Origin: Flavobacteriales bacterium
Lineage (GTDB): Bacteria; Bacteroidota; Bacteroidia; Flavobacteriales_D; Sanyastnellaceae
DNA length: 64,000 nucleotides
Direction of reading: 5' to 3'
Assembly (NCBI GenBank): GCA_947488195.1
Contig: CANKYR010000001.1
Coordinates: forward strand, 59,645-123,644
Shown here: one piece after another, positions 8,589 to 61,103 of the stretch
Numbering within the stretch: the first letter of the stretch is position 1
Layout of the letters: each line of letters opens with the position of its first letter
Notes under the pieces: model-generated
What the model was told of the DNA's origin: nothing
Databases searched by the model: none
The model's input: only the letters and a program-made list of their open reading frames with translations
Program-made: the position numbers and the translations under genes

Positions 8589-9557
8589 ATGAAAAATATT
8601 GCAGTGGTCTGCGGTGGTTACAGTGGCGAGTCTGTTGTTTCTATGCGTAGCGCGATGATGGTGATGGAGAACATAGACCGTTCGAAGTTCACACCGACAC
8701 AGATTGTGATTGAGCAAGAGCGTTGGTATGCGTTGGTGAATGAAGTGGAAGTTACAGTTGATCGCAACGATTTTTCTGTGGAAGTAGATGGAATGAAAAC
8801 CACGTTCGACGCAGTGTTCATGATTGTTCATGGTACTCCGGGAGAGAACGGATTGTTGCAAGGATATTTCGATACCATAGGCATGAAGTACACCACGGGT
8901 GATGTGTTAAATATGGCATTAACGTTCAACAAGAAAGCAACGACGCGTACGTTGGGTTCTATGGGTTATCGCGTTGCGCGATCCATTGTTGTTCGAAAGG
9001 AAGAAATAATTACAGCCAAAGAAGTGGTTGCAAAAGTGGGATTGCCATGTTTCGTAAAACCGAATTGTGGTGGAAGTTCAATAGGAACATCACGCGTGAA
9101 TAAGTTGGAAGAAGTTATGGACGCTATTTCTCGCGCTAGAAACGAAGATGAGGATATTATTGTTGAAGAATTTATTTCAGGAAGGGAAGTCACGTGTGGG
9201 GTGATCGTCATGAATGGAAAGCCAACGGCCTTGCCTGTTACAGAGATTGTGAGTGAGACTGAATTTTTCGATTTTCAAGCGAAATATGAAGGGAAGAGCA
9301 AGGAGATTACTCCGGCGCCAATTAGTGAGTTTCATTATGCCCGTGTTCAGGAATTAGCTGCTCGTATTTATACCGACTTGAATTGCGGCGGAATGATACG
9401 CGTAGACTTTTTGTTACCCGACGAAGAACCTTCTGTGATTGAAGTGAATACCGTACCTGGCTTCAGTGCGGCCTCTATTATTCCTCAGCAAGCTGCGGTG
9501 ATAGGTATGAGTAAGATGGAGTTGATTTCCGCGGTGCTAGGAACTACGTTGTTGTAA
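8589..9557 (+). CDS. ddl: D-alanine--D-alanine ligase
   Basis: Ddl joins two D-alanines with ATP to form the dipeptide at the end of the peptidoglycan stem. The 322-residue length is normal. The N-terminus KNIAVVCGGYSGESVVSMRS is the usual substrate loop, and HGTPGENGLLQGYFD is the conserved second motif. The ATP-grasp domain includes KPNCGGSSIGTS, and the metal site is MIRVDFLLP followed by VIEVNTVPGFS. Its last five residues and stop codon are encoded by the first unit of a 14-bp tandem repeat, so the repeat has become part of the coding end. Confidence 0.97.
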   Translation: MKNIAVVCGGYSGESVVSMRSAMMVMENIDRSKFTPTQIVIEQERWYALVNEVEVTVDRNDFSVEVDGMKTTFDAVFMIVHGTPGENGLLQGYFDTIGMKYTTGDVLNMALTFNKKATTRTLGSMGYRVARSIVVRKEEIITAKEVVAKVGLPCFVKPNCGGSSIGTSRVNKLEEVMDAISRARNEDEDIIVEEFISGREVTCGVIVMNGKPTALPVTEIVSETEFFDFQAKYEGKSKEITPAPISEFHYARVQELAARIYTDLNCGGMIRVDFLLPDEEPSVIEVNTVPGFSAASIIPQQAAVIGMSKMELISAVLGTTLL

Positions 9558-9597
9558 CTTCGTTGTTAGAACTTCGTTGTTGGAACTGCGTTGTTAT
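9542..9597 (+). repeat. Tandem 14-bp repeat, four units, starting inside the ddl 3' end
   Basis: Units start at 9542, 9556, 9570 and 9584, exactly 14 bp apart. Each is AAC-N3-GTT followed by a 5-nt spacer (GTTGT, GTTAG, GTTGG, GTTAT). The three variable bases are TAC, TTC, TTC and TGC. The first unit encodes the end of Ddl, and the TAA stop falls at a unit junction. The same family occurs at 14295 and, in inverted orientation, at 15005. Confidence 0.85.
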
Positions 9598-9647: not shown

Positions 9648-9737
9648 ATTCGCCGAAGGCATTCGTGTTTTCACATTCGTTGCTTCGCAACATTCGTGCT
9701 TGCACATTCGTTGCTAGGCAACATTCGCCCGCAGGGC
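9648..9737. repeat. Mini-hairpin array A (ATTC linker), six units
   Basis: The 4-nt linker ATTC alternates with six different short inverted repeats: GCC-GAA-GGC (9652), GTG-TTTT-CAC (9665), GTTGC-TTC-GCAAC (9679), GTGC-TT-GCAC (9696), GTTGC-TAG-GCAAC (9710) and GCCC-GCA-GGGC (9727). Every stem is perfect although the arms differ. The last hairpin ends at 9737, directly against the glyQS stop codon (9738-9740). The stretch 9598-9647 before it is pyrimidine-rich and shows no gene. Confidence 0.88.
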
Positions 9738-11267
9738 TCAGAAATACTGATCCAACGCCACCACCTTCCTAACCGCTTCATGCAAGTCTGCAATTGGAAT
9801 GCGCTCCTGTTGCATGCTGTCGCGGTGACGAATGGTTACGCAATTGTCTTCCAAGGTTTCGTTGTCTACTGTTACGCAAATAGGAGTTCCAATAGCGTCT
9901 TGTCTTCTGTATCTGCGACCAATGGCGTCTTTGTCGTCGTATTGTAAGTTGAAGTCTAACTTCAACAGATCTACAATTTCTTTTGCTTTTTCAGGAAGCC
10001 CGTCTTTCTTCACCAACGGCAATACCGCCACTTTCACAGGAGCCAAGGCCGCTGGAATGCGAAGCACCGTGCGCTCACTTCCATCTTCCAACTTCTCTTC
10101 CACAAATGAACTCGACAACACAGCCAAGAACATGCGGTCTAATCCGATGGAGGTTTCAATCACATACGGAACAAAACTCTCGTTCGTTTCCGGATCGAAA
10201 TAACGCAATTTCTTCCCACTGAATTCTTCGTGTTTTTTCAAATCGAAATCAGTACGAGAATGTATTCCTTCCAACTCTTTGAATCCCATTGGGAAGTTGA
10301 ACTCAATGTCGCAAGCCGCATTGGCGTAGTGCGCCAGCTTCAAGTGGTCGTGGAACTTGTAATTTCCTTCACCCAATCCTAAAGCGTTGTGCCACTTAAT
10401 ACGCTCGTTCTTCCAGTAGTTGTACCATTCCATCTCTGTACCCGGCTTCACGAAATATTGCATTTCCATTTGCTCGAATTCGCGCATGCGGAAAATGAAC
10501 TGACGTGCAATAATTTCATTGCGAAACGCCTTTCCAATTTGTGCAATTCCGAATGGAAGTTTCATTCTTCCTGTCTTCTGAACGTTCAAGAAATTCACGA
10601 AAATTCCTTGCGCCGTTTCCGGACGCAAATAAATAATTCCAGCATCGCCGCTTACTGCGCCGAGCTCTGTTTTGAACATGAGGTTAAACTGACGAACATC
10701 TGTCCAGTTGCGCGATCCAGTCTCTGGATCAGCAATTTCACAGTCTTCAATCAATTGCTTCAATCCTTCTAAATCGCTTGCTTCCAAGGCCGCTTTCATG
10801 CGTCCTTTTACCGCGTCTATTTTCTCTTGAGCGCGAAGGACATTCGGATTGGTTGCGCGGAATTGTTCTTCATCGAACGCATCTCCGAAACGGTTCTTCG
10901 CTTTCTCTATTTCTTTGGTGATTTTCGCTTCGCTTTTCGCCATGTAATCTTCCAACAAAACATCGGCGCGGTAACGCTTCTTGCTGTCTTTGTTGTCGAT
11001 CAACGGATCGTTGAACGCATCTACGTGTCCGCTTGCTTTCCAAGTGGTCGGATGCATGAAAATAGACGCATCTATTCCCACAATGTTTTGGTGCATGCGG
11101 GTCATGGCGGTCCACCAGTAGTTCTTGATGTTGTTTTTCAATTCAACACCCAACTGACCGTAGTCGTAGGCGGCCGAAAGGCCATCGTAAATTTCAGAGG
11201 AAGGAAATACAAATCCGTATTCCTTTGCGTGCGAGATTACCGCTTTTAATTTGTCTTCTTGTGCCAT
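9738..11267 (-). CDS. glyQS: Glycyl-tRNA synthetase (single-chain, dimeric type)
   Basis: A class II synthetase that charges tRNA-Gly. It has 509 residues from the ATG chosen, the normal size of the alpha2 enzyme. The N-terminus has SSEIYDGLSAAYDYGQLGVE. The catalytic core includes LRPETAQGIFVNF and FRNEIIARQFIFRMREFEQ (motif 2), and motif 3 is ETSIGLDRMFLAVL. The anticodon-binding domain has VAVLPLVKKDGLPEKAKEI. A longer frame to 11360 would add 31 unrelated residues, and the ATG at 11267 lies 8 nt from a TAnnTTTG box. The gene is downstream of purQ on the same strand, with 22 nt between. Its stop codon directly abuts mini-hairpin array A. Confidence 0.96.
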   Translation of the reverse strand: MAQEDKLKAVISHAKEYGFVFPSSEIYDGLSAAYDYGQLGVELKNNIKNYWWTAMTRMHQNIVGIDASIFMHPTTWKASGHVDAFNDPLIDNKDSKKRYRADVLLEDYMAKSEAKITKEIEKAKNRFGDAFDEEQFRATNPNVLRAQEKIDAVKGRMKAALEASDLEGLKQLIEDCEIADPETGSRNWTDVRQFNLMFKTELGAVSGDAGIIYLRPETAQGIFVNFLNVQKTGRMKLPFGIAQIGKAFRNEIIARQFIFRMREFEQMEMQYFVKPGTEMEWYNYWKNERIKWHNALGLGEGNYKFHDHLKLAHYANAACDIEFNFPMGFKELEGIHSRTDFDLKKHEEFSGKKLRYFDPETNESFVPYVIETSIGLDRMFLAVLSSSFVEEKLEDGSERTVLRIPAALAPVKVAVLPLVKKDGLPEKAKEIVDLLKLDFNLQYDDKDAIGRRYRRQDAIGTPICVTVDNETLEDNCVTIRHRDSMQQERIPIADLHEAVRKVVALDQYF

Positions 11268-14292: not shown

Positions 14293-14294
14293 TG

Positions 14295-14337
14295 AACTTC
14301 GTTGTTGGAATTTCATTGTTAGAACTGACGTTGTTAA
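14295..14337 (+). repeat. 14-bp repeat cluster, three units, after the hydrolase stop
   Basis: Units at 14295 (AAC-TTC-GTT-GTTGG), 14309 (AAT-TTC-ATT-GTTAG) and 14323 (AAC-TGAC-GTT-GTTAA). The middle unit changes both arms together, AAC/GTT to AAT/ATT, which keeps the dyad. Same family as 9542 and 15005. Confidence 0.8.
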
Positions 14338-14339
14338 AC

Positions 14340-14410
14340 CCTCGTCCGAAGGACCCTCGTGAAGAATTCACCCTCGCAAAGTCATTTGCCCTCGCAACGC
14401 AAACTGTTTG
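14340..14410. repeat. Mini-hairpin array B (CCTC linker)
   Basis: CCTC linkers alternate with GTCC-GAA-GGAC (14344), GTGAA-GAA-TTCAC (14359) and GCAAA-GTCA-TTTGC (14376). A degenerate last unit at 14394 ends with a small CAAAC-T-GTTTG dyad (14400-14410). It fills the gap between the 14-bp repeats and the region just upstream of the DUF1456 gene. Confidence 0.85.
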
Positions 14411-14437: not shown

Positions 14438-14914
14438 ATGACCAACAACAGTATCTTCCGTCGCATTCGATTTATTTACGACTTCTCTGATCAACAGATG
14501 ATAGACATTTTCGGATTGACCGATGTTATGGTTACGCGTTCTGATGTAAGTGATTGGTTGAAGAAGGAAGATCACGAAGAGTATCTCGACATTAACGATG
14601 AAATGCTTTCCATTTTTCTGAACGGATTTATCATTCATAAACGCGGACGAAAAGACGGACCATTGCCTGTTCCAGAGAAACGCTTAACGAATAACCTCAT
14701 CTTCCGAAAGATGCGCATCGCGCTGAATTTAATTGACGAAGACATTATTCAAATCCTTGCTCTTGCGGAAATGAAAATGAGCAAGCACGAACTCAGCGCC
14801 TTTTTCCGCAGCCCCACGCAAAGACAGTATGTCGAATGCAACAATCAGGTGATTCGCAATTTCTTTCAAGGGTTGGAGAAGCGCGAGGGGAGGGAGGAGC
14901 AGCGCAAGTCCTAA
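14438..14914 (+). CDS. yehS: DUF1456 family protein (YehS-like)
   Basis: A 158-residue protein made of two tandem copies of the DUF1456 domain, a conserved bacterial family without an assigned biochemical role. The first copy has FRRIRFIYDFSDQQMIDIFG, then VTRSDVSDWLKKEDHEEY and FLNGFIIHKRGRKDGPLP. The second has FRKMRIALNLIDEDIIQILA and SKHELSAFFRSPTQRQYVE. These match the YehS pattern closely. The last 12 or so residues (KREGREEQRKS) extend beyond the family's usual end. They are encoded by GAGG-rich sequence like the adjacent hairpin array, and the TAA stop sits in the loop of the array's first hairpin. Confidence 0.9.
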   Translation: MTNNSIFRRIRFIYDFSDQQMIDIFGLTDVMVTRSDVSDWLKKEDHEEYLDINDEMLSIFLNGFIIHKRGRKDGPLPVPEKRLTNNLIFRKMRIALNLIDEDIIQILALAEMKMSKHELSAFFRSPTQRQYVECNNQVIRNFFQGLEKREGREEQRKS

Positions 14915-14998
14915 GGACGAGGGCAACTGGCGTTGCGAGGGCGAATTGCTTCGCGAAGGTCTTACAGACGAGGGTTGCAAGCAACGAGGGTCTTCGAC
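14908..14998. repeat. Mini-hairpin array C (GAGG linker), six units
   Basis: Hairpins GTCC-TAA-GGAC (14908, loop is the stop codon of the DUF1456 gene), GCAAC-TGGC-GTTGC (14923), GCGAA-TTGC-TTCGC (14941), GTCT-TAC-AGAC (14959), GTTGC-AA-GCAAC (14974) and GTC-TTC-GAC (14990), joined by GAGG or GAAG. This is the strand complement of the CCTC design. It runs straight into the 14-bp tandem array at 15005. Confidence 0.88.
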
Positions 14999-31667: not shown

Positions 31668-33404
31668 ATGAAAAATATCTACTTCTTTTTTGCTGTGTTC
31701 TTTGTTGGAATTATTTCCGCAAACGCACAATGTCCAACATGTGCTCCTGACCCCACCTGCACAAACACAACGGGCACACCCATGATTTGTCCTGCTATTC
31801 CGCCGAATGCCACCACAGGTGTTTATTACGAACAGGTCATGACGTTCTTTATTCCAACGGATGTTACAGACCCTGGTTCAGGAGTGAATGCAACGTTGCT
31901 TCAGTTAACCATTACCGATGTTTCAGGATTACCTTTTGGATTGGAATTTACGTTGAACGACGCTGACGGAATTTTTTATCCGCCTCAAGGAGAGAATTCA
32001 GGATGTGCTACGATTTGTGGAGTTCCTGTATTACCAGGCACTTATGATATTGTCATCAGTATTACCGCACTTGCGGAAGCGTTTGGATTTGAAGTCACTC
32101 AAAACGACAGTTTTATTATTACGCTAATTGTTGAACAAGGTCCTGGCGGAACGTCAACGTTTACATTTGACCAATCTGCAGGATGCGGTTCTATCGATGT
32201 TGATTATGTTGCAACAATAGGCGGCGACGCGGGACAACTTACGACGTATACATGGGATTTTGGAAATGGTCAAACGGGCACAGATGCTGATCCAGCTCCT
32301 GTGAATTATGGTGCGCCGGGAACATACACTGCTTCTCTTCAAACCATTATTTCCAACTATGTTATTACATCTGTAAACCTTGCTGGAGTTAACGGAAACT
32401 GGAATGGTGATGCTGATGATTTGTTCAGTACTGCAGACCCTTACTTCACTATTAACAACGGCGCTGGAAGCGCTGTTTACACCAGTGGAACAGTGAACAA
32501 CCAAACAAACGCTTCGTATTCCAATGTCAACTTTACTCTTTCAAATCCTCCATACACGATTACGTTTTGGGATGCCGACGACATTACCCAAGACGATAAT
32601 TTAGGAACATCTTCTTTCAACATTGCAGTAGGTTCTCAATCATTCAATTCAGGGAACGGAACTTCTGGCACCATTAACATTTCATTGAACGAAGTGACGA
32701 ATATTTCGGCATCAACTGCAATCAGCGTCTTCCCGCAGCCCGATGCAACAGTAAGCGTGAGCGGAGATGTTATCTCTTGTTCCAACGACACCATGCCAAC
32801 CTACTTCTGGTATTACGACGGCATATTAATTTCAGGTGAATCGGGCTCAAGTTTAACCATGACTGAATCTGGTTATTATTCTGTTTATGTGCAGAATGAA
32901 TTCGGATGTTCTTCAACCAGTGAGCCTTATTTGTATTGTGCGCCTGTTGAAGTCTTTTGGAATGCTGCAGCCGACCAATTGTCAGTTGCAGATACTTACG
33001 ACACTTACCAATGGTTCTACAACGGGTTGTTGCTTCAGGGTGCTATAACGTATTATTTAATCAGTCCTCCGAACGGAGTGTATGCTGTTCAAGTCACAAA
33101 CAGCTATGGCTGCACGCTTACTTCAGACATTATTACTGTAAACGTTGGGGTGGAAGAAATTGCCCTAGAAGACCAATTGAACATTTACCCGAATCCGGTT
33201 ACCGATGTATTGAATGTTCAATGGAACAACACAACGGAAACTGCAACCCTTTATATTCACGACCTTTCAGGAAGACTGGTTCTTTCAGAGCGCGTAGCGA
33301 ATGGAAACGCTGTACTTGATCTTTCGAATCTCTCTTCAGGAAATTATATTCTTGAATTGCAAACGGGAGAAGGTTCCTTAAGAAAACAAGTAGTGAAACT
33401 TTGA
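31668..33404 (+). CDS. Large secreted protein with PKD domain and T9SS type A sorting domain
   Basis: 578 residues. Signal peptide MKNIYFFFAVFFVGIISANAQ, then a Cys/Pro-rich N-terminus. A PKD domain lies at about residues 165-240 with the hallmark YTWDFGNGQTGTDADPAPVN and a Gly-Thr-Tyr ending. Ig-like segments follow (YFWYYDGILISGESGSSL, YQWFYNGLLLQGA). The C-terminal 75 residues (LNIYPNPVTDVLNVQW, IHDLSGRLVLSE, LSSGNYILELQ) are a classic T9SS type A sorting domain. It is probably an adhesin or surface protein. Its stop codon supplies the first base of mini-hairpin array D. Confidence 0.9.
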   Translation: MKNIYFFFAVFFVGIISANAQCPTCAPDPTCTNTTGTPMICPAIPPNATTGVYYEQVMTFFIPTDVTDPGSGVNATLLQLTITDVSGLPFGLEFTLNDADGIFYPPQGENSGCATICGVPVLPGTYDIVISITALAEAFGFEVTQNDSFIITLIVEQGPGGTSTFTFDQSAGCGSIDVDYVATIGGDAGQLTTYTWDFGNGQTGTDADPAPVNYGAPGTYTASLQTIISNYVITSVNLAGVNGNWNGDADDLFSTADPYFTINNGAGSAVYTSGTVNNQTNASYSNVNFTLSNPPYTITFWDADDITQDDNLGTSSFNIAVGSQSFNSGNGTSGTINISLNEVTNISASTAISVFPQPDATVSVSGDVISCSNDTMPTYFWYYDGILISGESGSSLTMTESGYYSVYVQNEFGCSSTSEPYLYCAPVEVFWNAAADQLSVADTYDTYQWFYNGLLLQGAITYYLISPPNGVYAVQVTNSYGCTLTSDIITVNVGVEEIALEDQLNIYPNPVTDVLNVQWNNTTETATLYIHDLSGRLVLSERVANGNAVLDLSNLSSGNYILELQTGEGSLRKQVVKL

Positions 33405-33468
33405 TCCGAAGGATTTGATGTGTAAACACGAATGTCGCTGACGAATGCCTTCGGCGAATGTCTTCGAC
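33404..33468. repeat. Mini-hairpin array D (GAAT linker), five units
   Basis: ATCC-GAA-GGAT (33404), GTGT-AA-ACAC (33420), GTC-GCT-GAC (33434), GCC-TTC-GGC (33447) and GTC-TTC-GAC (33460), joined by GAAT after a TTGAT spacer. The first base is the A of the upstream TGA stop. The array ends at 33468, the base before the yraN stop (33469). It thus fills the whole gap between two convergent stop codons. Confidence 0.88.
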
Positions 33469-33834
33469 TTATTTAGCAATAGGATAAAACGCCTCTTCGA
33501 AATGAAAGATTTTTGTAGAGGCGTTTTCTTGTTCTACAATAGAAATCACGTCGAACCTGGGTTCTAGCGAATAGTTGTGCAGCACAATGAACAAGTGCGC
33601 TGCACGAATCAATTTCTGTCGCTTACGCGGATTCACCGCATCTAACGGATTACCGAAGGCATCGGTGCTGCGTGTTTTTACTTCAACAAAGACTAAATAA
33701 TCATGATCAATCATGATTAAGTCAACTTCATACGGATCTATTCGCCAATTCATGGCGACTTCCTTATATCCTTTTTTCTTTAAAAATTCAAGCGCCTGCG
33801 CTTCGCCTTTTTTTCCTAATGCGGTGTGATTCAT
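33469..33834 (-). CDS. yraN: YraN family protein (UPF0102, endonuclease-like fold)
   Basis: A 121-residue protein with the UPF0102 pattern: GKKGEAQALEFLKKKGYKEV, NWRIDPYEVDLIMIDHDYLV, FVEVKTRSTDAFGNPLDAVN and KRQKLIRAAHLFI. The E-x-D-x-(I/V)...E-V-K arrangement is the restriction-endonuclease-like metal site. A cellular role has not been firmly established; a link to recombination or DNA uptake has been suggested for family members. Convergent with the PKD/T9SS gene, with a hairpin array between the two stops. Confidence 0.93.
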   Translation of the reverse strand: MNHTALGKKGEAQALEFLKKKGYKEVAMNWRIDPYEVDLIMIDHDYLVFVEVKTRSTDAFGNPLDAVNPRKRQKLIRAAHLFIVLHNYSLEPRFDVISIVEQENASTKIFHFEEAFYPIAK

Positions 33835-34763: not shown

Positions 34764-34933
34764 CCTCACTCCTCCGGATCAATCGAAATAAATTTCGATC
34801 AATCTCTTCGAGATCAATCTGACGTTGTCAGAGAATCAAATCGTCGAAGACCCTCGTTGCTTGCAACCCTCGTCCAAAGGACCTTCGCAAAGCTATTTGC
34901 CCTCGCGTAGCAATACGCCCTCGTCCTTCGTAC
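34741..34933. repeat. Mini-hairpin array E (TCAA linker, then CCTC linker), 11 units
   Basis: The first part uses TCAA: ATCC-TGC-GGAT (34741), TCC-TCC-GGA (34770), TCGAAAT-AA-ATTTCGA (34783), TCTC-TTC-GAGA (34803), TCTGAC-GTT-GTCAGA (34818). The second uses CCTC or CTTC: GTC-GAA-GAC (34843), GTTGC-TT-GCAAC (34856), GTCC-AAA-GGAC (34872), GCAAA-GCTA-TTTGC (34887), GCGTA-GCAA-TACGC (34905), and an imperfect GTCC-TTC-GTAC (34923). It spans from the 3' end of the barrel gene to the lpd stop. Confidence 0.88.
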
Positions 34934-47059: not shown

Positions 47060-49594
47060 ATGAAAAGAATCTTACTTCTCGTTTTTTCTGCGCTGTACCT
47101 TGTTGGCGCTCAAGCTCAAGATCTCTTGGGTATTAGCTCGAGCAACTTCGGTGGGCTCTCGAGTGTGTATATAAATCCAGCGAACCTTGCCGACAACCGA
47201 TTGAAATTTGAAATCCAATTGGGTGGGACGGGATTTGCTTTTGCAAATAATTTCATGGGCTTCAAACCTAGTTATTTAGTTCGCGATGGAGGATTAACAT
47301 CAACAACTTACCCGTTGTTAGACCCAACACCGCCAACAGAGGATTTCACAACTGCGAATTTCCAAGACAACAGAAGGGCGTTTGTAAATAATAATATTTA
47401 TTTGCCAAGCTTGTTGGTTTCAATCAATGAAAAAAATTCGATTTCGCTTTCAGCAAGGGCAAGAACCTATTTGAATGTAGATGGGGTTGGAGGTGACTTG
47501 TTTCGTTTTGCCTACAATTCGTTGAACTACCCTTCGCTCTACAACACAAGAATTACCAACGAAAAGCTATCTATTCAAACCATGTCGTGGATGGAATATG
47601 CGCTTGGGTATGGAAGAGTTTTGATAGACAAAGAAAAACATTTCTTGAAGGCCGGCGTGACCTTAAAAGCTTTGCAAGGATTGCAGTCTGCCTATTTGTT
47701 CATAGACAATCTCGACTATGCAGTGAATTCCGATTCAACGGTTTCGTTGTACAACGCAGAGGTGCAATACGGACACTCCACGAATTTCGAAGCTAACCAA
47801 AATAACGCGAATTATCGTGTGGTATCAAATCTCGGAATCGGATTTGACTTTGGATTGATTTACGAATGGCGCCCCGATTATGCGAAGCACAAACATGACA
47901 TGGATGGTGAGACGAATGTGTGGAAGCGTAACGAGAACAAGTACAAGTTGAAAGTGGGTGTGTCTATGACTGACCTTGGTGGAGTGAAGTTTTCTAAAGG
48001 TGGTCAAAGTGGCGACTTCACGGCAAACACAAGCAATTGGGATATTTCGAAATTAGATTTCGGAACAACACCAATAGCTGCATTGGACGACACGCTGAGC
48101 GCACGTTTCGGAGGCACGAATACTGGAGCGAATTACAAAATGAATTTACCAACGGCTTTCAGCACGCAAATCGATTATCACATTTGGAGAGACTTGTACA
48201 TCAATCAAACGAACTTCATTGCGTTCGGATTTAATTCCAACCCGAATAAAATTCATGATTTCACAACCATTTCCGTAACTCCACGTTGGGATCATCGCAT
48301 TGCTGGAGTTTCAATTCCAATTAGCTACAACAGCTTAATGGGAACGCGCACAGGTCTAGCGTTGCGCTTGGGTCCTGTAACTTTCGGAACAAGCAGCATG
48401 TATCCGTACCGCGCATTTCTTCGCGGAGATGGTTTTGGAAAGAAGGACATCACAGGCTTAGACGCCTATGTTTTGGTTCGAATTCCAATCGCATACAAGC
48501 GCATTAAAGACCGCGATGAGGATAAAGTGTCTGACCGTAAAGACCAATGTGTGAAAGTGCCCGGTACATGGGAATACCGCGGCTGTCCTGATAGAGACGG
48601 CGACCACATTCGCGATGAAGAGGACGATTGCCCGGATGTTCCTGGTTTAGCGAAACTACACGGCTGCCCCGATAAAGACGACGATGGCGTAACTGATCTA
48701 AAAGACGATTGTCCAGATGTTGCTGGATTACCAGAATTGAAAGGTTGTCCGGATAGAGACGGTGATGGAATTACCGATTCTAAAGACGATTGTCCCGATG
48801 AAAAAGGATTGGCCATCTTCAACGGTTGTCCAGACCGCGATTCAGACGGTGTAATGGATCGCAATGACGATTGTCCAGACACCAAAGGTTTGGTGCAATA
48901 CAACGGTTGTCCTGATACAGATGGAGACAACATCATAGACAAAGTAGACGAGTGTCCAACAGTTTATGGTATTGCTGAATTGAAAGGTTGTCCAGCTGCT
49001 GAGTTAACCTATTTCAATGTAGAAACACAAGTTGAAAAAGTGAAACAAGGCGGTGGCGTATACAGTTACGGAAACTCGGTAGAAACGAAAACGGCGAAGT
49101 TTAAGTTGGAAGGGTACAATGCAGACACGGTGAAAACGGTCTTCGTTACTTCACCAAACCTACGCGGAAAGAACGCATACAGAGAAGCTGATGGATTCTT
49201 CCGTTTTGCTAAGGAGGCTGAAGTTGTTATCTTGAAGGAAGAGGAGAAACAAGTGATGAAGAAGGCATTCGAAAACTTGGAATACAAGACCAACAGTGAT
49301 GTTATTCTTTCAAGTTCATTTAGCAGCTTAGATGAATTGGCGAAGCTTATGGGAATCAATTCAACATGGAAGCTTCGAATTTCAGGACACACAGACAATG
49401 TAGGATCACGTGATGCGAACCTGAACTTATCGAAGCGCAGATCTGAATCGGTGAAGAAATATTTAATGACGAAGGGAATTGCTGCCGATCGCTTCGAAGT
49501 CTTGTACTTCGGTCCAGACAAGCCAATTGCTCCGAACAATACCGAAGACGGAAGAGCTAGAAACCGCCGCGTAGAGATGCTTATTGTGGAATAA
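47060..49594 (+). CDS. Surface protein: DUF5723 barrel, six TSP3 calcium repeats and OmpA domain
   Basis: 844 residues. Signal peptide MKRILLLVFSALYLVGAQAQ. Residues 20-490 form a DUF5723-type outer-membrane barrel beginning LLGISSSNFGGLSSVYINPA. Six consecutive 27-residue thrombospondin type 3 repeats follow, pattern DxDGDGxxDxxDDCPxxxGLxxxxGCP, with calcium-binding Asp ladders. The C-terminal OmpA peptidoglycan-binding domain has KLRISGHTDNVGSRDANLNL, LSKRRSESVKKYL and ARNRRVEMLIVE. It should link the outer membrane to the cell wall. Its length and composition are typical for Bacteroidota. A strong terminator follows 20 nt after the stop. Confidence 0.92.
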   Translation: MKRILLLVFSALYLVGAQAQDLLGISSSNFGGLSSVYINPANLADNRLKFEIQLGGTGFAFANNFMGFKPSYLVRDGGLTSTTYPLLDPTPPTEDFTTANFQDNRRAFVNNNIYLPSLLVSINEKNSISLSARARTYLNVDGVGGDLFRFAYNSLNYPSLYNTRITNEKLSIQTMSWMEYALGYGRVLIDKEKHFLKAGVTLKALQGLQSAYLFIDNLDYAVNSDSTVSLYNAEVQYGHSTNFEANQNNANYRVVSNLGIGFDFGLIYEWRPDYAKHKHDMDGETNVWKRNENKYKLKVGVSMTDLGGVKFSKGGQSGDFTANTSNWDISKLDFGTTPIAALDDTLSARFGGTNTGANYKMNLPTAFSTQIDYHIWRDLYINQTNFIAFGFNSNPNKIHDFTTISVTPRWDHRIAGVSIPISYNSLMGTRTGLALRLGPVTFGTSSMYPYRAFLRGDGFGKKDITGLDAYVLVRIPIAYKRIKDRDEDKVSDRKDQCVKVPGTWEYRGCPDRDGDHIRDEEDDCPDVPGLAKLHGCPDKDDDGVTDLKDDCPDVAGLPELKGCPDRDGDGITDSKDDCPDEKGLAIFNGCPDRDSDGVMDRNDDCPDTKGLVQYNGCPDTDGDNIIDKVDECPTVYGIAELKGCPAAELTYFNVETQVEKVKQGGGVYSYGNSVETKTAKFKLEGYNADTVKTVFVTSPNLRGKNAYREADGFFRFAKEAEVVILKEEEKQVMKKAFENLEYKTNSDVILSSSFSSLDELAKLMGINSTWKLRISGHTDNVGSRDANLNLSKRRSESVKKYLMTKGIAADRFEVLYFGPDKPIAPNNTEDGRARNRRVEMLIVE

Positions 49595-49614
49595 AACAAA
49601 CCACTTCTGAATTG

Positions 49615-49647
49615 AAAGGCCCCGATAATCAGTTTATCGGGGCCTTT
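49615..49647 (+). terminator. Terminator of the OmpA-family gene
   Basis: A perfect 14-bp stem: AAAGGCCCCGATAA at 49615-49628 pairs with TTATCGGGGCCTTT at 49634-49647, loop TCAGT. The T-rich downstream arm ends CCTTT, then GCTTTATT. Confidence 0.85.
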
Positions 49648-49713
49648 GCTTTATTCCAAATATTTGCATGGAAGGTCTTTTACATTTTTGTTAAAAGAAA
49701 AAAGAAAACGACA

Positions 49714-49767
49714 ATGAAAAAGAACATAAACATCCAGCTTGGCGTTTGGATTTACGCCGACAGATAA
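49714..49767 (+). CDS. 17-codon ORF between two terminators (possible leader peptide or microprotein)
   Basis: ATG at 49714 to TAA at 49767 encodes 17 residues, MKKNINIQLGVWIYADR. It is preceded by A-rich DNA (AAAAGAAAAAAGAAAACGAC) and, about 24 nt upstream, by a -7-like CATTTTTG. It is followed 31 nt later by a strong terminator. It is isolated from the upstream gene by another terminator, so the whole unit would make an RNA of about 150 nt. No gene follows on the same strand (the next is convergent), so it is not an ordinary attenuator. It may instead be a small RNA or toxin-like peptide. Confidence 0.4.
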   Translation: MKKNINIQLGVWIYADR

Positions 49768-49798
49768 TACGATTTAGGTTATGAGGTTTGGTTTGGTT

Positions 49799-49834
49799 AA
49801 GCCCTTTCAACGTTGTTGAAGGGGCTTTTTCTTT
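49799..49834 (+). terminator. Terminator after the 17-codon ORF
   Basis: AAGCCCTTTCAAC (49799-49811), loop GTT, then GTTGAAGGGGCTT (49815-49827), a 13-bp stem with one G-T wobble, followed by a T-run to 49834. The stop of the convergent epimerase gene begins at 49836. Confidence 0.85.
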
Positions 49835-49835
49835 A

Positions 49836-50855
49836 CTAGTCAGCTTGCGAAGCGCCTTTCGATAGAACCTTGTAATACCTTACGGTATCTTCAATGCTCG
49901 AAAAAGTATTTCGGTATTCCAATCCGAATACGCGCGTGGCCTTGCTTCCATCGAATCGTTTCACCTCGTCGTAATTGCGAATTATCTCTCGCGTAATGGT
50001 TGCTCTTTTTCCAGTGAATAATTCCACTAATGCTTCCATGTAATAGAGCAGCACAATCTGCCATTTTTCGGCAATCGTTTTTCCAATTTTAACTTGAAGC
50101 ACAGCTGCAATTTTTGTGAAAAGTTCTGACATGCGAACGTTCTCTGCGCACAGAATGTAGCGCTCATTGGTCGGCTCTTGTTTCGCTGCGCGAATCATCA
50201 CTTCCACTACATCTAAAACAGAAACAATCCCGCTTCCACCGGCGGGCAAGGCCGGGAGGCCTTTTTCAATTCGAGCAATCATGGTTCCTGAACTGCGGGT
50301 GCAATTGTTCGGACCGAAGATGACACCCGGATTTAAAATCGTAGCATTCAATCCTTCTTGAATTCCACGCCAAACCTCTTGTTCAGAAAGATATTTTCCC
50401 TTCGAATAATTTGAATGATAATCATTGAAATCTCGAGGGGTTTCTTCATCAATAACTTCTCCTTTTGAATCGCCTAAAGCAGAAATTGAACTGACATGAA
50501 TCAAGTGTTTTACTTCATTTTCAATACACGCATTCACCACGTTTTTTGTTCCATTAATATTCACTTCCAACATACGCGTTGCTTCTTTTCTGTGATAAGA
50601 AACAATAGCGGCGCAATGAAATACCGAGTGCATTCCTTCGGTTAAATCGAACATATCGTCGGCATCTTCCACATCTCCTTTCACCCATTGAACCTGAGAA
50701 AATAGGTTTTCCTTTCCATAAAATTGAAACAAGTTGAAGACTTCGGATTTGCCATTTTCATTTCGAAATAAAGCAGAAACAGGGATTCCTTCTTCAGCCA
50801 ATCGAAGAACAAGATGACTTCCAATTAAACCTGTTGCCCCTGTTACAAAATTCAT
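49836..50855 (-). CDS. NAD-dependent epimerase/dehydratase (extended SDR)
   Basis: A 339-residue protein with the Rossmann start NFVTGATGLIGSHLVLRLAE, the GxxGxxG motif, the NAD-binding FHCAAIVSYH, Ser in HVSSISALGD and the catalytic YxxxK as YSKGKYLSE. ILNPGVIFGPNN is also typical. Extended SDRs of this kind act on nucleotide sugars, dihydroflavonol-like substrates or sterols; the substrate is not predictable. It is divergent from uvrC, with only 29 nt between the starts. Confidence 0.88.
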   Translation of the reverse strand: MNFVTGATGLIGSHLVLRLAEEGIPVSALFRNENGKSEVFNLFQFYGKENLFSQVQWVKGDVEDADDMFDLTEGMHSVFHCAAIVSYHRKEATRMLEVNINGTKNVVNACIENEVKHLIHVSSISALGDSKGEVIDEETPRDFNDYHSNYSKGKYLSEQEVWRGIQEGLNATILNPGVIFGPNNCTRSSGTMIARIEKGLPALPAGGSGIVSVLDVVEVMIRAAKQEPTNERYILCAENVRMSELFTKIAAVLQVKIGKTIAEKWQIVLLYYMEALVELFTGKRATITREIIRNYDEVKRFDGSKATRVFGLEYRNTFSSIEDTVRYYKVLSKGASQAD

Positions 50856-55858: not shown

Positions 55859-56488
55859 ATGGCTTGGGATAAAATTGGAATAGCAAAGCGCATAGCGCAG
55901 GAGGTTCAAGACGGAACGTATGTGAACTTAGGCATTGGCATACCCACGTTGGTAGCGAATTACATTCCGGAAGGAATGGAAGTTGAATTGCAAAGTGAGA
56001 ACGGCATTTTGGGAATGGGGCCTTTTCCATTCGAAGGAGAAGAGGATGCAGACTTGATTAACGCAGGGAAGCAGACGGTTACTTTGCGTGACGGATCTTC
56101 CATTTTCGACAGTGCCATGAGCTTCGGAATGATTAGAGCGCAGAAGGTGGATCTTACTATTTTGGGCGCCATGGAAGTGAGTGAGAACGGCGACATTGCC
56201 AATTGGAAAGTTCCCGGTAAGATGGTGAAGGGCATGGGCGGCGCTATGGATTTAGTAGCCAGTGCGAAGAATATTATTGTCGCCATGCAGCATTGCGACA
56301 AGGCGGGTAACTCGAAGTTATTGCCACAGTGTTCTCTGCCGTTAACGGGCATTCATTGCATTAAAAAAGTAGTCACCGATTTAGGTGTATTCGATATTCG
56401 CGACGGCGCGTTTCATTTGGTTGAATTGGCTCCGGATGTTACGTTGGAAGAGGTGGTGGCGAAGACTGAAGGTAAACTGGTTGTGTAA
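55859..56488 (+). CDS. scoB: 3-oxoacid (succinyl-) CoA-transferase subunit B
   Basis: A 209-residue beta subunit. The catalytic glutamate is in LQSENGILGMGPFP (CoA-transferase signature 2). GIGIPTLVANYIP, GGAMDLVASAKNIIV and CSLPLTGIHCIKKVVTDLG also match the family. It pairs with ScoA. Its last codon and TAA stop lie inside the first mini-hairpin (GTGT-AA-ACAC) of array F. Confidence 0.95.
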   Translation: MAWDKIGIAKRIAQEVQDGTYVNLGIGIPTLVANYIPEGMEVELQSENGILGMGPFPFEGEEDADLINAGKQTVTLRDGSSIFDSAMSFGMIRAQKVDLTILGAMEVSENGDIANWKVPGKMVKGMGGAMDLVASAKNIIVAMQHCDKAGNSKLLPQCSLPLTGIHCIKKVVTDLGVFDIRDGAFHLVELAPDVTLEEVVAKTEGKLVV

Positions 56489-56675
56489 ACACGAGGGTCT
56501 TCGACGAAGGCAACTAGCGTTGCGAGGGTTTCACGAGGGTCTTTCAGACGAAGGCAACTGTCGTTGCGAGGGCGAAATGCTTCGCGAAGGCAACTTGCGT
56601 TGCGAGGGCAAATGACGTTGCGAGGGTCTGCGACGAGGGTGCTAACGCACGAAGGCCGATGGCGATAGTTCTATC
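56483..56675. repeat. Mini-hairpin array F (GAGG/GAAG linker), 13 units
   Basis: Hairpins start at 56483 (GTGT-AA-ACAC), 56497, 56510, 56528 (only GT-TTC-AC), 56539, 56554, 56572, 56590, 56608, 56626, 56639 (GTGC-TAAC-GCAC), 56655 and 56664 (GATAG-TT-CTATC). Linkers are GAGG or GAAG, except that the last two hairpins abut. GCAAC-N4-GTTGC recurs three times with loops TAGC, TGTC and TTGC. The array starts within scoB and runs into the end of the MNT gene, so both stop codons lie in hairpins. Confidence 0.9.
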
Positions 56676-56962
56676 TGAACGGAAAAACTCTCGATGTGCT
56701 TCAAAAGATTTTCATTCTTTATGGTTCGGAAATTCACCAAATCCACCAATTGAGGAATATTTAAATCTTCCAATTCACCTGCAATACAATTTAGATCGGA
56801 AAACGTTAGCTCCTCACCAAATAAACAAATGTCGATATCTGAACCCTCCCGGTAAGTTCCAATAGCGCGAGACCCGAAAATCTTCGCTTCTTGAACATGC
56901 GCATTCGAATAAATAACATCCGCTATTGCTCGAAGTGATTTCTGACTTAATCCCGTTTCCAT
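56642..56962 (-). CDS. MNT-type nucleotidyltransferase (antitoxin-like partner of HEPN protein)
   Basis: A 106-residue minimal nucleotidyltransferase. The active-site motif is IFGSRAIGTYREGSDIDICL, with GSR...DxD, and a third acidic residue in LVDLVNF. It lies 4 nt downstream of a HEPN gene. Such HEPN/MNT pairs form toxin-antitoxin modules in which the MNT enzyme AMPylates the HEPN RNase (established for HepT/MntA). The last residues SPSAFVR and the stop come from hairpin-array DNA, so the C-terminus has been rewritten by the repeat. Confidence 0.88.
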   Translation of the reverse strand: METGLSQKSLRAIADVIYSNAHVQEAKIFGSRAIGTYREGSDIDICLFGEELTFSDLNCIAGELEDLNIPQLVDLVNFRTIKNENLLKHIESFSVQIELSPSAFVR

Positions 56963-56966
56963 TTCA

Positions 56967-57377
56967 CTAAATTAATTCATTCATTCGAACTTCCAATTGC
57001 TCGAATAAAACAGGATATTGATTGATTACTTTTTCAAAGACTTCTTCCAAAATAGATTCATCATACAAATGAGACGTTTGATTTCGAGTTGAAATTGTTT
57101 CTAACCACAACTCCCCATTTAAAATTAATTGATTCTGATAAGCCAAACGAAAAGCATCACGAGATCCCACAATTTCTTTAATTCCCTGATGCTTCAAGTA
57201 ATCCTGCAAAACCTTCCACGACATCTCTTGCGTAAACTCAAAGGCTTGAATTAAACCCTGCTTTTCCAGCGATGAAAGCCCTCTCGATTTCGATAATTCC
57301 AATCCAGATAAAAATTGACTCCGAGCATTCTTAAAATTCTCGAAACGCTGCTTCCAACGAATTTCATTTGAATTCAT
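56967..57377 (-). CDS. HEPN domain protein, HI0074 family (HepT-like toxin candidate)
   Basis: A 136-residue all-helical protein of the nucleotidyltransferase-substrate-binding (HI0074) HEPN family. It contains EFTQEMSWKVLQDYLKHQGI and GSRDAFRLAYQNQLI. The RNase motif Rx4-6H reads TRNQTSHLYD near residues 96-105, so a catalytic Arg and His are both present. As the first gene of the pair it probably encodes the toxin. A perfect palindrome 5 nt before its ATG may be the autoregulatory operator. Confidence 0.88.
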   Translation of the reverse strand: MNSNEIRWKQRFENFKNARSQFLSGLELSKSRGLSSLEKQGLIQAFEFTQEMSWKVLQDYLKHQGIKEIVGSRDAFRLAYQNQLILNGELWLETISTRNQTSHLYDESILEEVFEKVINQYPVLFEQLEVRMNELI

Positions 57378-57382
57378 GATAC

Positions 57383-57399
57383 GAAATTCAATGAATTTC
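57383..57399. promoter_or_regulatory. Perfect 17-bp palindrome upstream of the HEPN/MNT operon
   Basis: GAAATTCA (57383-57390), a single A, then TGAATTTC (57392-57399). It lies between the HEPN start at 57377 and upstream DNA, where a toxin-antitoxin repressor would be expected to bind. No T-run follows, so a terminator is unlikely. Confidence 0.5.
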
Positions 57400-57490
57400 T
57401 AGATAAAAGCAAGTTTTGTTTATTCCAAGAAAAAGTAAATTATACTCTTCGTCTTAACAAAATCAAGCCTTTCAATTGACATAAATTTCT

Positions 57491-57652
57491 TCAATTCGTC
57501 CGAAGGACCCTCGTGAAACCCTCGCGAAGCATTCGCCCTCGCAACGCTAGTTGCCCTCGTCGAAGACCCTCAGCGTGCTTTGCTGCAGCTGCGAACGTAA
57601 TTCCCTTTTCGCGAATAGCGTTATCTAATATTTGTCCACGGTGCACAGCCAT
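57491..57652 (-). pseudogene. Truncated helix-turn-helix-like gene whose 3' end is replaced by hairpin array
   Basis: From ATG 57652 the frame reads MAVHRGQILDNAIREKGITF, then AAAAKHA. This resembles the first helices of small Bacteroidota XRE-type regulators, which start with HRGQIL...AI. After 27 residues it runs straight into array G (EGLRRGQLALRGRML...) and stops at 57491. The DNA-recognition helix is missing, so this is probably a broken gene. The upstream DNA contains further in-frame codons to 57691. The remaining part of the 375-nt gap (57378-57752) has the palindrome at 57383, this remnant and the promoter at 57723. Confidence 0.55.
57498..57567. repeat. Mini-hairpin array G (CCTC linker), five units
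   Basis: GTCC-GAA-GGAC (57498, preceded by ATTC), GT-GAA-AC (57513), GCGAA-GCA-TTCGC (57524), GCAAC-GCTA-GTTGC (57541) and GTC-GAA-GAC (57559), joined by CCTC. It begins inside the reading frame of the helix-turn-helix remnant. Confidence 0.88.
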
Positions 57653-60975: not shown

Positions 60976-61103
60976 GCCCTTGGGCATCTGGCGTTGCGAG
61001 GGTCTTTCAGACGAAGGCAAATTCTTTGCGAGGGTTCTGCGAACGTATGATTAATACGCAACGCTAGTTGCCCTCGCGAAGTATTCGCCCTCTTTCGAAG
61101 AAA
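60976..61103. repeat. Mini-hairpin array H (linker switches from GAGG to CCTC), about eight units
   Basis: GCCC-TT-GGGC (60976), GTCT-TTC-AGAC (61002), GCAAA-TTC-TTTGC (61017), GTTC-TGC-GAAC (61034), GTAT-GATTA-ATAC (61045), GCAAC-GCTA-GTTGC (61058), GCGAA-GTA-TTCGC (61076) and TTTC-GAA-GAAA (61093). The left half uses GAGG/GAAG linkers and the right half CCTC, so array orientation flips near 61045-61057. Confidence 0.85.

Follow-up and report, generated by a model that had tools for sequence, protein, structure and literature searches.

Short-hairpin arrays between convergent genes of a Flavobacteriales genome: a probable genus-specific class of DNA repeat

In the stretch of Flavobacteriales DNA analysed here (64,000 nucleotides, hereafter the window), the gene for a T9SS-sorted protein with a PKD domain and yraN are convergent, and 64 bp separates their stop codons. 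The TGA of the T9SS/PKD gene occupies 33402-33404 and the yraN ORF stop starts at 33469. Between them, 33404-33468 consists of five short perfect hairpins, the first using the A of the TGA and the last ending on the base ahead of the yraN stop. The features of the locus are as follows:

31668-33404, forward strand: gene for the T9SS-sorted PKD-domain protein, left convergent neighbour (Por_Secre_tail 2.4e-14; PKD weak)
33404-33414, no strand assigned: first hairpin, ATCC-GAA-GGAT, sharing one base with the T9SS gene's TGA stop
33420-33468, forward strand: GAAT-linker array of four hairpins (GTGTAAACAC, GTCGCTGAC, GCCTTCGGC and GTCTTCGAC), its last base adjoining the yraN stop
33469-33834, reverse strand: yraN (UPF0102, 1.6e-26), right convergent neighbour

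The hairpins at 33420-33468 are, in order, GTG-TAAA-CAC, GTC-GCT-GAC, GCC-TTC-GGC and GTC-TTC-GAC, with gaat as the linker throughout, and the ATCC-GAA-GGAT hairpin is probably what remains of a TTGA-type array, of which relatives have a longer version. An earlier note on this DNA had described a first hairpin that borrows the A of the T9SS/PKD TGA and a last one that finishes one base short of the yraN stop, and both were seen. Comparison with shuffled sequence confirmed that the array at 33404-33468 is real: family-linker arrays numbered 53 in 1.17 Mb of the own genome (G000) and 68 in 1.19 Mb of the related genome G005, with 0 in the shuffles. Likewise, the own genome contained 31 chains in which four or more perfect hairpins shared a constant linker, and its Markov-shuffled version 0. 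A strict detector of chains, requiring 13 bp or more for four units, misses 33420-33468, which the family-linker detector catches with zero shuffled matches. The own-genome sample comprised 1.166 Mb in 37 contigs, with 984 genes from a purpose-written, uncurated gene caller; the genomes are draft MAGs, and sampling reached about half of G000, a similar share of G005 and less than one-fifth of G007. No terminator-like site was found within 33404-33468, and a scan of the window against Rfam at the gathering threshold returned two tRNAs only, leaving the arrays unmatched.

The window holds further arrays, which belong to several linker families and to a 14-mer family:

9540-9595, reverse strand: 14-mer array (AAC-GNA-GTT hairpins), beginning within the ddl ORF, which ends at 9557
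9652-9737, reverse strand: GAAT-type array (ATTC on the forward strand), six hairpins, adjoining the glyQS stop at 9738
14293-14389, no strand assigned: two copies of the 14-mer and a GAGG-type array (CCTC on the forward strand, four hairpins), co-directional gap
14908-14998, forward strand: GAGG-type array, six hairpins, the loop of the first being the DUF1456 stop TAA
15004-15157, forward strand: 14-mer array (AACAACGNAGTTCY), 11 copies, reaching 16 nt into the rlmF ORF
34770-34832, reverse strand: TTGA-type array (TCAA on the forward strand), four hairpins, downstream of the 33873-34763 gene
34843-34918, reverse strand: GAGG-type array (CCTC on the forward strand), five hairpins, downstream of lpd
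56483-56663, forward strand: a pair of GAGG-type arrays that starts at the scoB stop and reaches into the MNT ORF
57524-57567, reverse strand: GAGG-type array (CCTC on the forward strand), divergent gap, on the far side of the MNT/HepT pair
61002-61103, no strand assigned: GAGG array, then inverted CCTC array, co-directional gap

Arrays are thus present in the four other convergent gaps that the earlier note had named (ddl/glyQS, DUF1456/rlmF, barrel gene/lpd and scoB/MNT), and the gene identities were confirmed. Exact filling from stop to stop, which it had claimed for all five gaps, holds at T9SS/yraN and fails at the other four, where arrays overrun the ORFs or stop short. The ddl/glyQS array begins 18 nt within the ddl ORF; arrays intrude 7 nt into DUF1456 and 16 nt into rlmF, and 6 nt into scoB and 22 nt into MNT; those between the barrel gene and lpd fall short of the gene ends by 6 bp and 14 bp, respectively. 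The stop codon is often supplied by the repeat unit itself. Moreover, arrays occupy just 5 of the 14 convergent pairs of the window, a proportion that the note had omitted, and they also occur in the two co-directional gaps and the divergent gap listed above.

Each linker-hairpin array is built from perfect palindromes of 3 to 6 bp, mostly triloops, joined by a linker that is constant within the array, giving a unit of 12 to 18 bp. By linker, the families are GAGG (with GAAG), GAAT, ATGA, TTGA, AGA and AGG, to which the 14-mer family is added. The 14-mer family consists of head-to-tail copies of one unit, and the linker is the sole repeated part in the linker families. Within convergent gaps, the spacing from one hairpin to the next had its main peak at 4 nt (24 versus 1.3 in shuffled sequence) and a second at 2 nt (18 versus 3.3). 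The outer base pair is set by the family (G-C in GAGG and GAAT, C-G in ATGA and T-A in the others), loops are mostly 3 nt long, and CTTCG, or CGAAG as its complement, is the most frequent apex. To keep the pairing test non-circular, all segments between consecutive linkers were taken, with pairing not required. These linker-picked segments were paired in 76 to 100% of cases at depths 2 to 4 from the outer pair, compared to 27 to 50% expected from column composition, and the stems covaried, with up to four Watson-Crick types at one position. Non-Watson-Crick combinations made up 48 of 515 cells (10 G-T/T-G, 9 A-C/C-A and 29 others), revealing no wobble excess among the stem mismatches. Where an RNA helix is under selection, G-U pairs are usually tolerated on the transcribed strand; the lack of a G-U excess in array stems therefore indicates a DNA-level property. 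Arrays also have polarity, since the terminal hairpin GTCTTCGAC stands last in 9 of 22 GAAT and 9 of 28 GAGG arrays, compared to 2 of 49 (GAAT) and 6 of 84 (GAGG) positions in the middle of arrays. All nine TTGA arrays lying at most 40 bp from a gene 3' end in the own genome and G005 had the same orientation relative to the gene, unlike GAGG arrays near gene 3' ends, which were divided 7 and 7; the uniform orientation of the TTGA arrays speaks against the DNA-repeat explanation preferred below.

Genome-wide, arrays were found in 19 of 149 convergent (12.8%), 6 of 149 divergent (4.0%) and 9 of 649 co-directional (1.4%) gene pairs of the own genome, and in 16 of 163 (9.8%), 9 of 162 (5.6%) and 20 of 672 (3.0%) pairs, respectively, of the 1.19 Mb sampled from G005. 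Relative to the length of array-free gap, the own genome contained 2.78 arrays per kb in convergent, 0.38 in co-directional and 0.33 in divergent gaps; the corresponding densities in G005 were 2.01, 0.62 and 0.65. The difference between convergent and co-directional pairs was significant in the own genome (p=8e-9) and in G005. Convergent pairs exceeded divergent ones in the own genome (p=0.011) and in the pooled data (p=0.005), while G005 alone gave no significance (p=0.21); equal frequency in divergent gaps, which the earlier note had regarded as contrary to its proposal, therefore does not hold in the own genome and is possible in G005. Hence, the orientation tendency seen in the window is borne out by convergent enrichment, yet arrays in co-directional gaps, in divergent gaps and in ORFs rule out exclusive convergent placement, which is a bias, not a rule.

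From the placement in five convergent gaps, the earlier note had suggested a shared job at mRNA 3' ends. According to this explanation, many weak hairpins would terminate both convergent genes or block 3' exonucleases. Besides the convergent enrichment, closeness to gene ends speaks for it: of the ends of convergent genes with arrays, 33 of 38 in the own genome and 21 of 32 in G005 had the array overlapping the stop or at most 20 bp away from it, and in co-directional gaps 21 of 29 arrays were closer to the 3' end of the upstream gene (p=0.024). Arrays thus lie where an intrinsic terminator is expected, yet divergent gaps and ORFs carry them as well. Terminators were scanned for with Watson-Crick pairs only and with shuffled controls; a version allowing G-T matched often inside arrays. 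Among convergent gaps, classic stem-T terminators were present in 4 of 35 with arrays and in 42 of 89 that were array-free and 35 bp or longer (p=0.0002, pooled). This scarcity favours a 3'-end role insofar as it fits replacement of terminators by arrays, and it also agrees with an origin of most arrays at junctions where a terminator had never existed.

Orthologous junctions in G007, a genome that is ~75% identical in DNA, pointed in both directions. Within the part of G007 that was sampled, the orthologs of four own-genome array junctions were adjacent: three were -4 to 4 bp apart and one had a classic terminator; the orthologs of a fifth array pair were not adjacent. The two G005 array junctions with G007 orthologs corresponded to gaps of 4 and 13 bp, the 4-bp one being T9SS/yraN, which is also counted for the own genome. 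In support of a 3'-end role, the array at C18:9767 occupies the place of a classic terminator in G007. Against it, convergent gaps shorter than 20 bp, too short for such an array, made up 80 of 149 in the own genome and 95 of 163 in G005; with more than half of the convergent gaps offering no room, an array is not required.

The energetics also argue against it. Single hairpins had median RNA folding energies of 0 to -2.2 kcal/mol; three of the genome's classic terminators, by comparison, lay at about -15 to -19 kcal/mol. Whole arrays mostly folded little better than shuffles, with z-scores that ranged from -0.4 to -2.6 and were in most cases close to -1. The arrays resemble known bidirectional intrinsic terminators (PMC5381666) in spanning a convergent gap from stop to stop and in their covarying stems. 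Those terminators are, however, one stable hairpin flanked by A- and T-tracts, whereas the arrays are many weak hairpins, and in the own genome terminators of the bidirectional type occur separately, mostly in array-free gaps. A classic bidirectional terminator was ruled out by the absence of T-tracts and the weak hairpins, and the weak z-scores together with the missing wobble excess argued against selection at the RNA level. The array-free convergent gap at 49594-49836 of the window, with two strong terminator-like hairpins (GGCCCCGATAA...TTATCGGGGCC; AGCCCTTTCAACGTTGTTGAAGGGGCT), is a useful control.

Arrays were furthermore found in frame within genes, namely within a gene for aspartate kinase, fdhD, an aroE-like gene (names that we take to apply from reading the protein sequences) and a membrane protein gene, which contains two. 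The fdhD products of G000 and G005 differ by a block of 25 residues, and 15 residues differ at one site of the membrane protein; the differences are whole-codon blocks and leave the reading frame intact. The second site of the membrane protein has an array of the CCTC (GAGG) family in G000 and of the ATTC (GAAT) family in G005. A strong terminator is not expected inside translated genes, though translation could mask one. Overall, the part of the 3'-end proposal that rests on convergent bias, closeness to 3' ends and few classic terminators stood, though these can be explained without the proposed job, and weak hairpins, in-gene arrays and short G007 junctions told against the rest. Termination as the arrays' reason for being is not supported, we regard the 3'-end explanation as doubtful, and on the sequence data any 3'-end role would be at most secondary.

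The distribution among relatives was narrow. A CGAGGG pattern was abundant in eight of nine genomes of the genus and a CGAATG pattern in seven of nine, and both were almost missing from the other genomes searched (of the family and order in the case of CGAGGG). No chain of at least four units occurred in 580 kb of sequence taken from 80 further Bacteroidota contigs, and no family-linker array in the 375 kb sampled from G007. Among the genomes searched, the arrays are restricted to one genus, and no description of such arrays in Flavobacteriales turned up in the literature searched.

Within the genus, the sites persist and the families change. The T9SS/yraN junction carries arrays in G000, G004, G005, G006 and G008, with different lengths and different mixtures of TTGA and GAAT; in G001 it starts like the other array-bearing relatives and continues as a run of N, and in G007 it is 4 bp. 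Downstream of lpd, GAGG arrays are present in G000 and G002, GAAT arrays in G001, G003, G005 and G006, and none in G004; the first and last hairpins at this site are similar despite the GAGG/GAAT difference. The array downstream of glyQS is of the GAAT, GAGG or TTGA type depending on the genome, with proteins 99% identical. Genome-wide, GAGG and GAAT pattern matches stood at 119:22 in G000, G002 and G008 and at 63:334 in G001 and G003 to G006. A four-gene DNA tree, in which G002 and G008 had no sites in common and the root is unsure, split the former three from the other five with a support of 0.999. Of the convergent pairs whose adjacency is shared by G000 and G005, three had arrays in both, one in G000 and one in G005 only, and 46 in neither (p=0.0008), and repeat-like sequence was present in the other genome at both discordant sites. 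Such ortholog counts are small because cross-genome comparison was confined to reciprocal best hits within the sampled stretches. Conservation of array sites while the sequence changes counts in favour of a 3'-end function, since it could mean selection for an array there, and inheritance of the site predicts the same picture. One in-frame TGA each was seen in the glyQS match of G001 (C25) and the rlmF match of G004 (C64), which may be assembly errors.

The free variation of the palindromes and the block change of linkers between lineages point to a fast-evolving DNA repeat, not to a dedicated terminator. We consider it probable, with some reservation, that 33404-33468 is a copy of a genus-specific class of DNA repeats that turns over at the DNA level and is tolerated best at stop-stop junctions. 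In the mechanism that we propose, arrays would spread and turn over as DNA, with units gained and lost by slippage, arm complementarity maintained by hairpin-templated synthesis or correction, and linkers homogenised by recombination between arrays. They would build up where insertion is least harmful, chiefly at stop-stop junctions formerly with almost no intergenic DNA, and at some sites an array may have replaced a classic terminator. With stop codons contained in the units and arrays growing to or into gene ends, a gap would then seem filled from stop to stop. Neither an enzyme nor a target-site duplication nor a transposition event was identified, so that mobility of the arrays is inferred. 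A more far-reaching version, which is tentative and rather unlikely, would have a process of the genus's own write or edit the arrays as DNA, producing complementary arms, one dominant linker per lineage and replacement of families in place, even in frame, with arrays held at gene ends as sequence-independent 3' boundary elements.

Alternatively, the arrays could be DNA elements read by a protein, with a nucleoid, recombination or replication factor recognising the linker or extruded hairpins and a change of its specificity having shifted the linker throughout a lineage. Such reading would suit a constant linker next to stems that are free yet perfectly paired, the lineage-wide GAGG/GAAT difference, the bias of GTCTTCGAC to the last position and the dominance of CTTCG/CGAAG apexes, which are known for stable DNA triloops. 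A candidate protein was not found, however, and copies inside genes and the absence from G007 suggest that the function is dispensable in the wider genus; we regard this explanation as improbable. Classical REP/RAYT elements, i.e., tetranucleotide-tagged hairpins moved by a Y1 transposase, share the hairpin and tetranucleotide layout, lie likewise predominantly between convergent and unidirectional genes (PMC3733652) and could be connected with the Y1 (IS200/IS605-like) transposase genes of four of the nine genus genomes, one of them near a G005 array, but this identity is ruled out as highly improbable by tags that are neither GTAG nor CGTC, by stem sequences that are not conserved and by a Y1_Tnp search with 0 matches in the own genome (85% complete) and 0 in the array-rich G003 (96% complete). 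The Y1 gene in G005 (C14:11232-11655) lies ~0.2 to 0.3 kb from a GAAT array downstream of scoB.

A fast-evolving DNA repeat of this kind has partial counterparts elsewhere. Like REPs (PMC3733652), the arrays are short palindromes with a 4-nt tag, in high copy, mostly intergenic and sometimes in genes. Unlike REPs, which are GTAG- or CGTC-tagged and, for GTAG, linked to RAYTs (PMC3733652), array stems vary with pairing kept and the linker constant, the linkers are GAGG, GAAT, ATGA, TTGA and AGA, many different hairpins run head to tail, and the own genome is without a Y1 transposase. Rickettsia palindromic elements (reviewed in PMC10969869) are also palindromic repeats in frame within unrelated metabolic genes, with units of ~150 bp and conserved sequence, whereas the arrays have units of 12 to 18 bp and grow unit by unit. 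In excerpts of a report on Volvox organelle DNA (PMC2670323), palindromic repeats with loops of 3 to 5 nt, which are considered selfish, similarly fill nearly all longer intergenic DNA; unlike in the arrays, their stem sequence is common and they average 50 nt and are nested, and neither a constant linker nor a linker shift is reported in those excerpts. Tandem repeats of Borgs (PMC9879509) are likewise fast-evolving and head to tail, occur in gaps and as in-frame ORF copies and sometimes start from within a gene end, but their units are identical copies, whereas linker-hairpin units differ and the linker alone is constant.

What surprised us was the combination of fully covarying stems with linker switching by lineage. 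Usual repeats keep their sequence and lose their structure; the arrays keep structure and linker and lose the stem sequence, alike on both strands and between genomes that are ~90% identical in DNA. Copying, correction and homogenisation of palindromes thereby become testable through sequence comparison. The arrays also turn the requirements of convergent gene ends into a natural experiment, because at one and the same place relatives differ in having a classic terminator, an array of another family or almost no gap.

Some arrays may mark cassette boundaries. In the window, an MNT nucleotidyltransferase/HepT-like pair lies between inverted arrays, GAGG on the left and CCTC on the right, the whole spanning 56483-57567. 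Similar placing was observed for a four-helix-bundle-like gene (G000 C12:2856-3545), around which GAAT-type arrays lie in G005, and for ORF6N-like genes (G000 C29:17104-19357 and G005 C1:267784-269017). Inverted GAGG/CCTC pairs in co-directional gaps, at 61002-61103 of the window and at G000 C29:11905-12081, could form a long duplex.
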